Shown: piece after piece, positions 4,918-49,465 of the stretch
How positions within the stretch are numbered: the first letter of the stretch is position 1
Layout: every line of letters starts with the position of its first letter
Assembly (NCBI RefSeq): GCF_021028995.1
Contig: NZ_JAJJZG010000004.1
Coordinates: 62,001-126,000 of the forward strand
Direction of reading: 5' to 3'
From: Halobacterium sp. KA-4
Lineage (GTDB): Archaea > Halobacteriota > Halobacteria > Halobacteriales > Halobacteriaceae
Length of the DNA: 64,000 bases
The notes under the pieces: generated by a model
Told to the model about the DNA's origin: nothing
The model's input: only the letters and a program-made list of their open reading frames with translations
Database searches by the model: none
Made by a program: the position numbers and the translations under genes

Positions 4918-6312
4918 TTACACAAGCGGCAGCACGGAGGACATGATGAGCACCGACACGAGCCCGGTGACGGAGATAATCGTTGTCAGTGCGGTCCACG
5001 TCTTCAGCGTCTCCGCTTGTGTGAGGCCGCCGATTTCCTTCACGAGCCAGAAGCCCGAGTCGTTGTACCACGAGCAGATGTTCCCGCCCGCGCCGATGAC
5101 CATCACGAGGTACGCCGCGCTGACGTCGAGTTGGCCGGTCAGGGGCGCCATGATGCCAGCGGCGGTCAGCATCGCGGCGGTCGCCGATCCCTGCGCAATG
5201 CGGACAATAGCGGCGATGAGCCATGCGGTGACGAGCAGGCCGATGCCGAAGTTCTGCAGGATGTCGGCGATGTACGGGCCGATGCCGGAGGCGGCGAGCA
5301 GCGCACCGAACGCGCCACCCATCGCGGTGATAGCGGCGATGTTGCCACCGCTTCTCAGTGCTTCAGTGAGTTCGTCCTCCCAGACGGACCGCGAGAGGCC
5401 GGTCCAGCGGAGGTAGGTGACGGCGGCTGCCATCGCGGCGATGGTGAGTGCGACGTTCTTGTCGCCGAGGAACGCGACGACTGGTTGAACTAGTTCCAAG
5501 ATAGGGTACCAATCTTGGAATGCGCTGACAGCAGTAGCCGACCCGACGAGGCCAACTGCGAGGAGGATGGGCGCGATGGCCTCGAGGACGCCGGGGAGGT
5601 TCGTGGTGTCGCGCTGGGCGCGCTCCTCCAGCTCCTCCGTGGTGGTGCCCATTGCGTCCCGCAGCGGGATGTCGAGGCGGGCGTTAATCCAGCGGCCGTA
5701 GATGAGGCCGCCGACGATGGCCGCGGGGATTGCGGTGGCGACACCGACGAGGATCGTGATGCCGAGGTCGACGCCGATTTCGCTGGCGACGGCGAGCGGG
5801 CCGGGCGTCGGCGGGACGAACACGTGCGTGGTTGCCGCACCGGCACCGACCACGACGAGGTAGAGTGCGTAGTTCTTCCCGACGCGGGCGCGCATCGAGC
5901 GGGCCAGCGGCGCCATCAGGTAGAACACGCTGTCGAAGAACACTGGGATCGCGAGGACGGAGCTGCTACCCCAGAGCGCGAGGTCGGAGTTGCCTTCGCC
6001 GACTAGCGACTGGAACCCACGAACGATGCGCTGGGCAGCCCCGCTCTCTAGCATTGACTTCCCGATGATGGCAGCCATCAGGATGGGGATACCGATGCCG
6101 GCCATGTTGTTACCGAAGGCCGTCGCGGTCCTCGCCGCCGCGTCGGCCATTGCGAAGTCGGGGACGAAGACGGCGTTGACGAGGCCGACGGTGAACGCCG
6201 CGATGGCGAGCCCGACGAACGCAGGAAGGTCCAAGAAGACTAGTAGCATCACGACTACGGCCAGCCCGGCCGCGAACGTGAGCAGTGGACTGTGTGCGAA
6301 TTCAATTGCCAT
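4918..6312 (-). CDS. GntP-family permease (gluconate:H+ symporter type)
   Basis: A 464-residue integral membrane protein with about 12-14 hydrophobic helices. The family pattern is clear: GIGIPILMAAIIGKSMLESG near residue 75, FVPPTPGPLAVASEIGVDLG, and the C-terminal VIGAGGNICSWYNDSGFWLV. Family members import gluconate or related sugar acids with protons. The substrate here cannot be told. A 13-base palindrome lies about 55 bases upstream of the ATG and could be an operator. A universal stress protein gene follows on the same strand. Confidence 0.9.
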   Translation of the reverse strand: MAIEFAHSPLLTFAAGLAVVVMLLVFLDLPAFVGLAIAAFTVGLVNAVFVPDFAMADAAARTATAFGNNMAGIGIPILMAAIIGKSMLESGAAQRIVRGFQSLVGEGNSDLALWGSSSVLAIPVFFDSVFYLMAPLARSMRARVGKNYALYLVVVGAGAATTHVFVPPTPGPLAVASEIGVDLGITILVGVATAIPAAIVGGLIYGRWINARLDIPLRDAMGTTTEELEERAQRDTTNLPGVLEAIAPILLAVGLVGSATAVSAFQDWYPILELVQPVVAFLGDKNVALTIAAMAAAVTYLRWTGLSRSVWEDELTEALRSGGNIAAITAMGGAFGALLAASGIGPYIADILQNFGIGLLVTAWLIAAIVRIAQGSATAAMLTAAGIMAPLTGQLDVSAAYLVMVIGAGGNICSWYNDSGFWLVKEIGGLTQAETLKTWTALTTIISVTGLVSVLIMSSVLPLV

Positions 6313-6366
6313 GTGTTACGATTTATCAGGCAATCCCAGCACCCCAAAAAAGTTTTTATTCGATAC

Positions 6367-6379
6367 CGGAATAATTCCG
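6367..6379. promoter_or_regulatory. 13-base palindrome upstream of the GntP gene (candidate operator)
   Basis: CGGAATAATTCCG is a perfect palindrome about 55-67 bases upstream of the permease ATG. It lies next to an AT-rich stretch that could hold the promoter. A dimeric regulator such as an IclR- or Lrp-type protein could bind it; no such regulator is encoded beside it. Confidence 0.35.
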
Positions 6380-6425
6380 ACAGGCCGCCCCTACAGGTCA
6401 TATTTCTGACCTTCGAGGCGGCTAC

Positions 6426-13904: not shown

Positions 13905-13987
13905 GTAGCGGAACGAACATCACTCGAATCGAGCACTCTCAGGCTTGATGATTTTGTGGCTGTGGACTGTGTCGTGTGGCGGACGCG

Positions 13988-14550
13988 CTTCCTCCCACCC
14001 CTGAAGGGGTGGGCTTCCGTGCTGCTACCGCTGTGAGGGATCTACGCTGGTTCTTTGCCCTATCTTCTACAAGGAGAGAATCCCCGTCGTTTACGGTGTT
14101 GACGAGACGCGTTGGGTCTCGTTCGCACACCAGAACGCAAAGCGTTCTGGGGACGGGCGTGGATCCAACAACGCCGACACAAACCTCGTTCAGCAGCAAT
14201 ACGGATATTTACGTAGAATCGTATCGTAGAGTGACATACACCGAGGCGGTCACACCGCCCACTCAAATGCACAATATCGGGACTCCGAGGCCCAAAACGT
14301 TTGAGACACCCTCTCGAAGGGCTGTGGTGTCTCGGTCAGAAGATAACTCCGAGTCCCCTCTGGAGATAGGAGTAACGGCGGTGTGGCCCCGTCCTCAGAA
14401 CGCTTCGCGTTCTGATGGGCTGCGCAAGAGCCCTGCTCTTGCGAACGCCATCGGCCTGTCTTGTCGATAGGTCGCAAACCAGCAAATAGTCCAACTCAGC
14501 GGTGCGGTGCCGTGGGGCGCCTCGCCGTTTACCGCGAGGAGGAGGTCACC
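13988..14550. repeat. Hairpin-rich non-coding element, copy A (IS200/IS605-like ends)
   Basis: There is no credible gene from 13905 to 14595. From about 14070 to 14550 the sequence aligns base for base with 49099-49465 (copy B). Shared blocks include GAGAGAATCCC, ACTCCGAGTCCCCT, ATAGGAGTAACGGCGGTGTG (14387 region), TCTCGAAGGGCTGTGGTGTC and CATCGGCCTGTC, ending in GGTCACC. Copy A carries extra perfect hairpins that copy B lacks, at 14102-14122, 14130-14150, 14395-14415 and 14423-14443. A C-rich hairpin (CCCACCCCTGAAGGGGTGGG, about 13994-14013), like the subterminal palindromes of haloarchaeal TnpB elements, lies at its left. I read it as a non-autonomous relative of an IS200/IS605 element; a structured RNA is also possible. 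Confidence 0.65.
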
Positions 14551-14595
14551 CCGGCGACCAAGGGCTTATTGTGCCGGCCGGCATACCACGATGTA

Positions 14596-14763
14596 ATGGC
14601 TACCAACGACGAAGGTAGCGTTCACGAGCCCGATGAGGGTGATATGCTTCCGGATGAAGCGGCAGTGCTCCCTGAGCGAGGCGAACGCCTCGACGAGACT
14701 GATGAGGACGATTTACTCACGACTGAGGAAGCTGCCGACCGTCTTGGCATCGATCTGGACTAA
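14596..14763 (+). CDS. Antitoxin of a RelE-type pair
   Basis: A 55-residue very acidic protein (MATNDEGSVHEPDEGDM ... LLTTEEAADRLGIDLD). The C-terminal part looks like a short helix-turn-helix segment. It ends five bases before the toxin gene, the usual toxin-antitoxin layout, and would neutralise the toxin by binding it. No cleaved DNA-binding domain of the Phd or RHH type can be seen, so autoregulation is uncertain. A longer reading from 14461 would run into repeat copy A. Confidence 0.7.
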   Translation: MATNDEGSVHEPDEGDMLPDEAAVLPERGERLDETDEDDLLTTEEAADRLGIDLD

Positions 14764-14768
14764 AAGGC

Positions 14769-15104
14769 GTGCCGGAGGCTCCAGACGCACTTCGCATTCT
14801 CCCCGCCGTCATCGAGGACGACCTCGCTTCCATTCAAGCTCACAACCCTGACCACGCAGAGCGGATTCTCCAGAAAATCAACGACTGGGAAGACAAGATT
14901 CAGTGGGGGCGAGTGCCCCAAGAGCATCTTACGTATCTCGCTGGCTCTGCTGAGTACAACTTTTACCGGGAGCGTGTTGGAAACAGCGGCTATCGCGTCG
15001 TGTATGAAATCAGTGATGGGCTGATGGCTGCCGTTGCCGTGTTCCCGAAAGACGACAACGCCTACGATTTAGACGAGTTCGCTCGCCGCACCGACCGCGC
15101 TTGA
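14769..15104 (+). CDS. RelE/ParE-superfamily toxin
   Basis: A 111-residue protein starting at a GTG five bases after the antitoxin stop. The fold pattern of RelE toxins is visible: two N-terminal helices (LASIQAHNPDHAERILQKI), then strands LAGSAEYNFYRERVGNSGYR and VVYEISDGLMAAVAVFPKDD. RelE members cut mRNA on the ribosome. Candidate catalytic residues are the Tyr/Arg in YRERVGNSGYR. The pair sits directly beside a mobile-element-like repeat, consistent with recent arrival. Confidence 0.8.
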   Translation: MPEAPDALRILPAVIEDDLASIQAHNPDHAERILQKINDWEDKIQWGRVPQEHLTYLAGSAEYNFYRERVGNSGYRVVYEISDGLMAAVAVFPKDDNAYDLDEFARRTDRA

Positions 15105-15929: not shown

Positions 15930-16107
15930 TGGGGCCGGAGGGATTTGAACCCCCGATCGACTGATATCTCCGGTGCGCCTCGGAACTCCAGAGGGTCGTC
16001 GTCGCGGACCGATGATCAGTCGGCCGCTCGGTATACCAGTCTGGAATTTCGTCCCGGGCGCGTGGCCTCTGGAGTCAGTCGCCATCCCTGGCTTGGCCAC
16101 AGCCCCT
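15930..16107 (-). tRNA. tRNA-Trp (CCA) with 103-base intron
   Basis: The mature tRNA is 75 bases. Acceptor halves GGGGCTG and CGGCCCC pair with one G-U, the T-arm is GGGGGTTCAAATCCC, and the discriminator is A. The anticodon CCA is at 16072-16070. The anticodon stem ACTGA/TCAGT closes only if 15966-16068 is removed, which places a 103-base intron after position 37, the canonical archaeal site, with bulge-helix-bulge pairing around CTCCAGA and GGAGAT. In Haloferax volcanii and other euryarchaea the same intron carries a box C/D guide RNA for methylation of the tRNA itself. The intron here is the same length and contains CTGA boxes. Confidence 0.95.
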
Positions 16108-49054: not shown

Positions 49055-49098
49055 TATTCGAGGTTCAGGACGCTGCGACTAAATAGCCTATCTTTTTT

Positions 49099-49465
49099 CG
49101 AGGAGAGAATCCCGTCCTTCGGGGCGGGCGTGAATCCGACAACGTATGTCAAATCCATGCTCGCCAGGAATTCGGGTATTTAACTCGAACGCTGTGGTTG
49201 CATGACGTACGCTGAGGCGGCATGACCGCCCACGTAATCGGATAATATCGGGACTTCGGAGACTCAGGATGTTCGAGATGCTCTCTCGAAGGGCTGTGGT
49301 GTCTCACCCAAGATAACTCCGAGTCCCCTGCCGGGATAGGAGTAACGGCGGTGTGGCCCCGCCATCGGCCTGTCATGCCGACCGGGTTGTAAACCACCAA
49401 ATAGCCCACCTCAGCGGCGCGGTACCGTGGGAAGCCGCGCCGTGAACGGCGAGGAATAGGTCACC
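49099..49465. repeat. Hairpin-rich non-coding element, copy B
   Basis: The region from 49055 to 49486 between the menF start and the oxidoreductase stop has no gene. It opens with GAGGAGAGAATCCCGTCCTT and CGGGGCGGGCGTG, an IS200/IS605-type end hairpin. It then runs parallel to copy A (14070-14550) through to GGTCACC. Copy B is 114 bases shorter because the extra hairpins of copy A are missing. Paired changes such as GGCGGCATGACCGCC here against GGCGGTCACACCGCC in copy A keep a stem. It may be a dead transposon end, a non-autonomous element or a structured RNA. Confidence 0.65.

Follow-up and report, generated by a model that had tools for sequence, protein, structure and literature searches.

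Two copies of a non-coding element in the window

The analysed window, the whole 64,000-nucleotide stretch of Halobacterium sp. KA-4 DNA, carries on its forward strand two copies of a short element classed here as a PATE-type, stand-alone omegaRNA element. Copy 1 occupies positions 14060–14549 (490 bp) and contains two nested hairpin inserts, while copy 2 at 49088–49464 (377 bp) is insert-free and lies at a site that is empty in congeners. With the limits of both counted from CTATC to GTCAC, copy 1 exceeds copy 2 in length only because of its two ~55-nt inserts. A preliminary description had placed the copies at 14070–14550 and 49099–49465; the regions were right and the exact ends are those given here. 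Its observation that the two align end to end agrees with the full-length alignment and with BLAST (E = 2.9e-37, with a further segment at E = 1.3e-21), the repeat blocks being 80–89% identical and column identity reaching 75%, flanks included. Neither copy encodes an intact protein, in line with the earlier finding that none could be read, and the long identical blocks then pointed out are represented by ATAGGAGTAACGGCGGTGTG, which is the same in both copies and is found in 45 stretches from other haloarchaeal genomes. The example then offered of a paired change is mistaken: GGCGGTCACACCGCC and GGCGGCATGACCGCC have one stem (GGCGG/CCGCC) and differ in the loop only, while a true compensatory change, GGCGG/CCGCC to GGCGA/TCGCC, occurs in relatives L109 and L145.

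Copy 2 displays the complete layout of the element. It begins with the target tetranucleotide CTAT (49088–49091), which is kept from the empty site and corresponds to the left cleavage site and presumed TAM, followed by the left-end palindrome CCCGTCCTTCGGGGCGGG (49111–49128) and the TATA-like promoter box GGGTATTTAAC (49174–49184). The 5′ RNA domain (49212–49305) comprises a hairpin at 49212–49230 and a pseudoknot hairpin at 49272–49290 that pairs with 49298–49305. The omegaRNA-like domain (49311–49455), which matches Rfam RF02656 sot0042 with 49.8 bits (E 8.1e-12), is composed of stem S1 (49315–49343), hairpins H2 (49347–49363) and H3 (49364–49390) and the right-end hairpin (49434–49454). 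The TEM GGTCAC (49459–49464) pairs with the H2 loop GTGGCC, and a putative guide starts at 49465. Similarly, copy 1 presents a TATA-like box GGATATTTACG (14203–14213), recognised as the AT-rich box conserved in relatives, a 5′ RNA domain (14241–14333) formed by the hairpin GAGGCGG..CCGCC and a pseudoknotted hairpin, an omegaRNA-like domain (14341–14540; RF02656 sot0042, 32.9 bits, E 9.8e-7), and a right-end hairpin with the TEM GGTCAC (14519–14549) ahead of a putative guide from 14550. Both copies are probably degenerate relics. In copy 1 a nested two-hairpin insert lies in the left-end palindrome (approximately 14096–14151, delimited by alignment to insert-free copies and containing the hairpin CAGAACGCnnnGCGTTCTG at 14131–14149) and another (14392–14447) interrupts hairpin 2 of the omegaRNA in its 3′ arm; in copy 2 the 5′ pseudoknot is weakened and the right-end stem is mismatched. 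BLAST reveals about ten full or partial copies elsewhere in the same genome, the best of which (C14) is 95% identical over the full length of copy 1, and two of which (C19 and C30) look intact.

Two-hairpin inserts of ~50–57 nt recur in element palindromes and hairpin loops, with those of the window joined by similar ones in the left end of the tnpB element L061 and in the right ends of L095, L076, L209 and L211. Their stems vary and their linkers recur, and CAGAACGCnnnGCGTTCTG has nine occurrences in the genome, mostly within such elements. Comparable small mobile repeats (SMR-A), which target PATE palindromes, are known from Haloquadratum. Just left of copy 1, positions 13983–14037 hold a short palindromic sequence (CTTCCTCCCACCCCTGAAGGGGTGGGCTTCC..) with 50–75 bp matches of 84–96% identity in many relatives, possibly a terminal-only PATE. 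Adjoining copy 1 is a small ORF pair (14461–15104, forward strand), the second member of which (14769–15104) is weakly ParE toxin-like (E 8.6e-4); the two are perhaps a toxin-antitoxin pair. Further downstream, an Rfam tRNA match stretched over 177 nt (15930–16106, reverse strand), missed by ARAGORN at default settings, is probably an intron-containing tRNA.

Insertion site, mobility and candidate transposase source

The site of copy 2 is empty in the congeners G007, G008 and G009, which read ..CTAT-CCTTC.. (..AAATAG[C/G]-CTAT-CCTTCGG.. in G008 and G009), where the window reads CTAT-[C....GTCAC]-CCTTCGG. At this one locus, insertion after CTAT thus entailed neither target duplication nor loss, and such clean insertion beside a fixed tetranucleotide is as expected of the IS200/IS605 mode. 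The site is also empty in G002, G011 and G012, with the tetranucleotide off by one or two bases. A second empty site was sought for a copy in another genus, the flanks of which proved not to be conserved. One genome holds three identical copies at different sites, and in one genus three genomes have identical copies at sites that are not homologous, BLAST similarity between them stopping at the element borders. The element family is therefore mobile. Lacking TnpA and terminal inverted repeats, possessing near-terminal palindromes and causing no target duplication, its members belong to the known haloarchaeal non-autonomous kind, the PATEs. The absence of both terminal inverted repeats and target duplication led us to reject a canonical MITE of a DDE transposon.

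The end hairpin likened in the preliminary description to those of TnpB (IS200/IS605) elements is real, and both the left and right end hairpins are shared with the tnpB element L061 and with L031, an element encoding TnpA and TnpB. The same genome contains a complete IS605 element (C6) with an intact 132-aa TnpA and a 426-aa TnpB, the former displaying an HUH-like HVHILFQ motif and a candidate Tyr. This element starts with CTAT-CTTGATTCAGCGAGAGAATCCCGCC and ends with GGATGTCAC, the same end signature as the window element, and by virtue of that match it would be a credible transposase source. In 8 of the 62 element-carrying genomes no Y1 transposase was detected, so that not all copies can move now.

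Distribution of the family

A scan of GTDB genomes with an invariant 20-mer returned 45 stretches from ~30 haloarchaeal genera. Alignment of these stretches with their flanks defines an element of 374–380 bp, when free of inserts, that starts with CTATC, ends with GTCAC and sits between unrelated flanks. It is present in 28 of 195 haloarchaeal genomes and in 19 of 65 genera. With a diverged relative as query, matches extend to up to 62 of 294 genomes, a count that includes at least three matches to the 3′ ends of real tnpB genes. Family members occur in Haloquadratum J07HQW2 (L086, L089 and L090), and an intact-looking copy of the TTAC/TCAA subfamily lies in an unannotated gap of H. salinarum NRC-1 pNRC200 (NC_002608.1, 267912–268286; L273 974–1348), where it matches sot0042 with 76 bits (E 6e-19), below the 88-bit gathering score. 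Viral contigs gave no exact match to the element, and two Halorubrum virus records contain no more than fragments of its ends.

A second kind of stand-alone omegaRNA-like sequence was noticed in Halalkalicoccus (L068, ~640–1100) and Halovivax (L093, ~6050–6395). Its conserved 5′ region (GTTGACTCGGTGTT.GCC) is not that of the window family, and its stem S1 has undergone compensating changes (ACTCG/CGAGT versus ACTCC/GGAGT).

Homology of the 3′ part to tnpB-associated omegaRNA

The 3′ ~165 nt of the element are homologous to the tnpB C-terminus, omegaRNA and right end of tnpB elements in the same genome. In L061 (C4), which encodes a TnpB of 423 aa, AAGATAACTCCGAGTCC and GATAGGAGTAACGGC encode KITPSP and DRSNG; beyond them come the 3′ UTR and a right end shared with the stand-alone element, as is the left end of L061, including CTAT. 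The stand-alone elements contain no tnpB ORF, and in most of them the spacing of the two blocks departs from the reading frame of coding tnpB. A protein-coding remnant was accordingly rejected as sole explanation: the KITPSP and DRSNG blocks do derive from the TnpB C-terminus, yet most elements no longer have the frame. A small protein readable in L005 (MTYTEAVRRHLNAQ..) was likewise discarded, as its hairpin loop varies by 1–2 nt, which shifts the frame, and it is not conserved. The preliminary description had set its non-coding reading against a translated tnpB interior. Such an origin does apply to the two short blocks, and the RNA idea stands all the same, since omegaRNA lies across the 3′ end of tnpB and its structure here outlives the frame.

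Over the full length of the model (positions 1–174), Rfam RF02656 sot0042 matches the stand-alone elements with E values of 1e-14 (L074), 8e-12 (copy 2) and 1e-6 (copy 1). The stand-alone RNAs score 33–76 bits against a gathering cut-off of 88, which the tnpB element L061 passes (94 bits), and at gathering level Rfam recognises no known family in the window except tRNAs. The loop of hairpin 2 and the TEM are found as GTGGCC/GGTCAC, TTGGCC/GGTCAA, TTGGCA/TGTCAA and GTGGCA/TGTCAC, two positions covarying with pairing kept; 98.3% of cells are paired and two columns have changed on both sides. By position, the right-end hairpin lies at the element boundary and the flank takes the place of the guide. 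The mobile element thus keeps an omegaRNA-like scaffold and is more than a decayed transposon. The two possibilities between which the preliminary description had wavered, a non-autonomous transposon and a folded RNA that is perhaps akin to the guide of TnpB, are supported together: the former by empty sites, common ends and multiple copies, the latter by the sot0042 match, the kept loop/TEM pseudoknot and strong covariation.

Conserved RNA structure, 5′ domain and TATA-like box

Covariation was assessed in a set of 49 diverse stand-alone cores (A4), pseudoknot included. In the proposed structure 94.8% of cells are paired, compared with 37–52% when the partners are slid. Both sides have changed in 17 pairs and in 169 individual cells. 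The corresponding shuffle means are 11 and 60, and none of 500 shuffles reaches the observed values, in a comparison that is not fully phylogeny-corrected. This compensatory conservation, which includes the loop/TEM pseudoknot, demonstrates selection at the RNA level.

The 5′ domain is matched in this genome by stand-alone copies only and not by tnpB elements. It consists of a hairpin whose loop pairs downstream, and both helices are present in 51 of 65 sequences, compared with 1.1% of shuffled ones. The helix sequences differ between subfamilies with pairing kept: GTTCGAGA(CACCC)TCTCGAAC occurs with GACACC/GGTGTC, GTCTGAAGG(AATCC)CCTTCGGAC with GGAATCC/GGATTCC, GCGGAAGA(CACCC)TCTTCCGT with ACACCCT/AGGGTGT, ACAGAAAG(TACCC)CTTTCTGT with GTACCC/GGGTAC and CGCAGAAAG(CATCC)CTTTCTGTG with GCATCCC/GGGATGC. 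In the first subfamily the second helix (GACACC/GGTGTC) runs into the first, and a switch between two conformations would therefore be an alternative to the 5′ pseudoknot there. A long-range pairing between the 5′ hairpin and hairpin 2, proposed by RNAalifold, was rejected, being lost in the loop variants CATGA and TTCG, in which both local hairpins are kept.

Among 68 relatives, an AT-rich box preceded by G/C lies 29–36 nt upstream of the RNA core across subfamilies, a placement that would be as expected of an archaeal TATA-like box. The RNA is 87–93% identical and the spacers beside the box only 55–62%. These figures bear on the view that the family is a plain transposase-free IS200/IS605 passenger, its interior a fused tnpB-element remnant devoid of RNA function. 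Non-coding PATEs with IS605-like palindromes and no target duplication are established in Haloquadratum, where HqIRS71 holds part of the tnpB C-terminal region with broken ORFs (PMC3119063), and the ends and empty sites described above would fit such a passenger. TnpA, however, needs the two end hairpins only, yet the 250-nt interior is far better conserved than the spacer, compensatory changes keep its structure across subfamilies, and a 5′ domain absent from tnpB is conserved together with the TATA box; we regard this view as unlikely. Much more improbable is a recent burst of decayed tnpB elements, in which likeness would reflect the short time since spread and no selection on RNA. Some genomes do hold copies that are 100% identical, and the degenerate state of both window copies would suit such a burst, but subfamilies are only 70–75% identical to one another and display many double changes that keep pairs, and the spacer has diverged while the RNA blocks are invariant.

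Presumed TnpB partners and proposed mechanism

TnpBs, several in each genome, are encoded in all 13 element-carrying genomes checked, including eight with no detected Y1 transposase. In place of the RuvC-II motif (F/L)E(D/N)L of other TnpBs, those associated with a sot0042-type omegaRNA have VGDL (L039, L041, L027, L028, L085, L149 and L161) or, in L061, VSWPED. Judged from these motifs, catalysis by the VGDL and VSWPED proteins may be rearranged or lost. As these are the TnpBs with the closest omegaRNA, cleavage by the presumed partner is uncertain, and the RNA may plausibly direct binding or act as a decoy instead. An RNA that is transcribed but serves as a decoy, or to regulate TnpB or the expression of tnpA/tnpB, rather than as a productive guide would accord with the altered RuvC-II motifs, since the nearest TnpB may bind without cutting and so exert guide-directed repression or sequestration; the extra 5′ pseudoknot domain could alter binding, and earlier work on H. 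salinarum proposed a decoy function for circular omegaRNAs (PMC12558985). However, the RNA end coincides with the element boundary and an intact TEM, the flank is always in the place of the guide and the CTAT on the target side is always kept, and a pure decoy would not need loop/TEM pairing at the junction. A decoy in place of a productive guide is thus quite unlikely in our judgement.

The reading that we consider probable is that of a mobile stand-alone omegaRNA gene packaged as a PATE, moved by TnpA in trans and, as we infer, probably employing TnpB in trans. Through the element ends (CTAT | C...left palindrome ... right hairpin-GTCAC), TnpA supplied in trans would excise the element and insert it as single-stranded DNA beside CTAT. 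From its own TATA box the element would be transcribed into a ~250-nt RNA in which the pseudoknotted 5′ domain precedes an omegaRNA scaffold of the TnpB type. With the scaffold stopping exactly at the right end of the element, the downstream DNA, whatever its sequence, would become the guide. TnpB from other elements, acting in trans, would then recognise CTAT (as TAM) and the guide, a combination that reconstitutes the empty donor site, and its action there would favour retention of the element. The family and its boundaries, the CTAT insertion without duplication, the ends common with a TnpA- and TnpB-encoding element, the homology to tnpB omegaRNA with loss of the tnpB frame, the RNA structure kept by compensatory change (loop/TEM pseudoknot included) and the kept TATA-like box are observed; transcription, TnpB binding, guide use, targeting and the effect on retention we infer. 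The whole suggests an element living as a genetic parasite, with transposase and RNA-guided nuclease both borrowed from its relatives. A bolder version, which we hold to be evenly balanced, is that these elements are satellites of TnpA and TnpB: guide-RNA genes stripped of both proteins, with a 5′ pseudoknot domain evolved for loading TnpB in trans, that would have spread through a sizeable minority of haloarchaea (H. salinarum NRC-1 included) by aiming the TnpBs of other elements at their own empty donor sites.

Comparison with known systems

The palindrome-associated transposable elements (PATEs) of Haloquadratum walsbyi (Dyall-Smith et al. 2011, PMC3119063), HqIRS71 in particular, are the closest known mobile elements. 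Like them, the present elements are non-coding, a few hundred bp long and multicopy; at 377–490 bp they are too short for a transposase and hold no intact ORF of relevance. They have IS605-type palindromes near both termini, ends (CTTTCTTCGAGG... and ...GGAGGTCAC) that are not inverted repeats, and a target oligonucleotide beside the insertion with no duplication (CTAT-CCTTCGG empty sites, one locus). Mobilisation by TnpA in trans, a further PATE trait, has a candidate agent here in an intact TnpA with matching ends, and HqIRS71, too, includes a portion of the 3′ region of tnpB in which the frames are broken. In contrast to the 2011 account, which predates omegaRNA and regards the interior as a remnant, the interior is a structured RNA kept by selection, equipped with a promoter box and with a 5′ pseudoknot domain for which tnpB shows no counterpart.

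The closest known RNA, sot0042 (RF02656), is the TnpB-overlapping omegaRNA/sotRNA of Halobacterium (Gomes-Filho et al. 2015, as cited in PMC12558985). Stem S1, the pairing of the hairpin 2 loop with the TEM, the right-end hairpin, the end at the element boundary and the flank as putative guide are common to both. Unlike sot0042, the stand-alone RNA overlaps no tnpB gene, has a short hairpin where sot0042 has coding sequence joining hairpin 2 to the 3′ part, carries an extra conserved 5′ domain and scores under the Rfam gathering cut-off. The IS200/IS605 elements encoding TnpA and TnpB (for example the C6 element, L031) have the same CTAT target, a similar left end (CGAGAGAATCCCGCC) and the right end GTCAC, but the present elements have neither tnpA nor tnpB. 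Stand-alone (trans-encoded) omegaRNAs were reportedly described for IscB by Altae-Tran and colleagues in 2021. These likewise place the guide RNA apart from the nuclease gene, which is TnpB here and not IscB, and we know of no mobile, PATE-like packaging described for them. The literature searched contained no description of a PATE combined with an omegaRNA.

Until now PATEs have been known as transposase-free passengers and omegaRNA as a by-product of tnpB; if the two are combined, a parasite of RNA-guided nucleases is predicted. If true, this would be a mobile guide RNA without its protein, would provide natural trans-acting guides for TnpB and would help to account for the excess of transposase-free elements over IS605 elements in some haloarchaea. 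It would also suggest how a guide RNA parts from its nuclease gene, a step toward CRISPR-like organisation, and the pNRC200 copy makes the reading directly testable in a model organism. PATE packaging and the omegaRNA scaffold are each known; none of the papers searched describes a widespread PATE family as a stand-alone, structurally kept omegaRNA gene with a promoter box and a 5′ domain.
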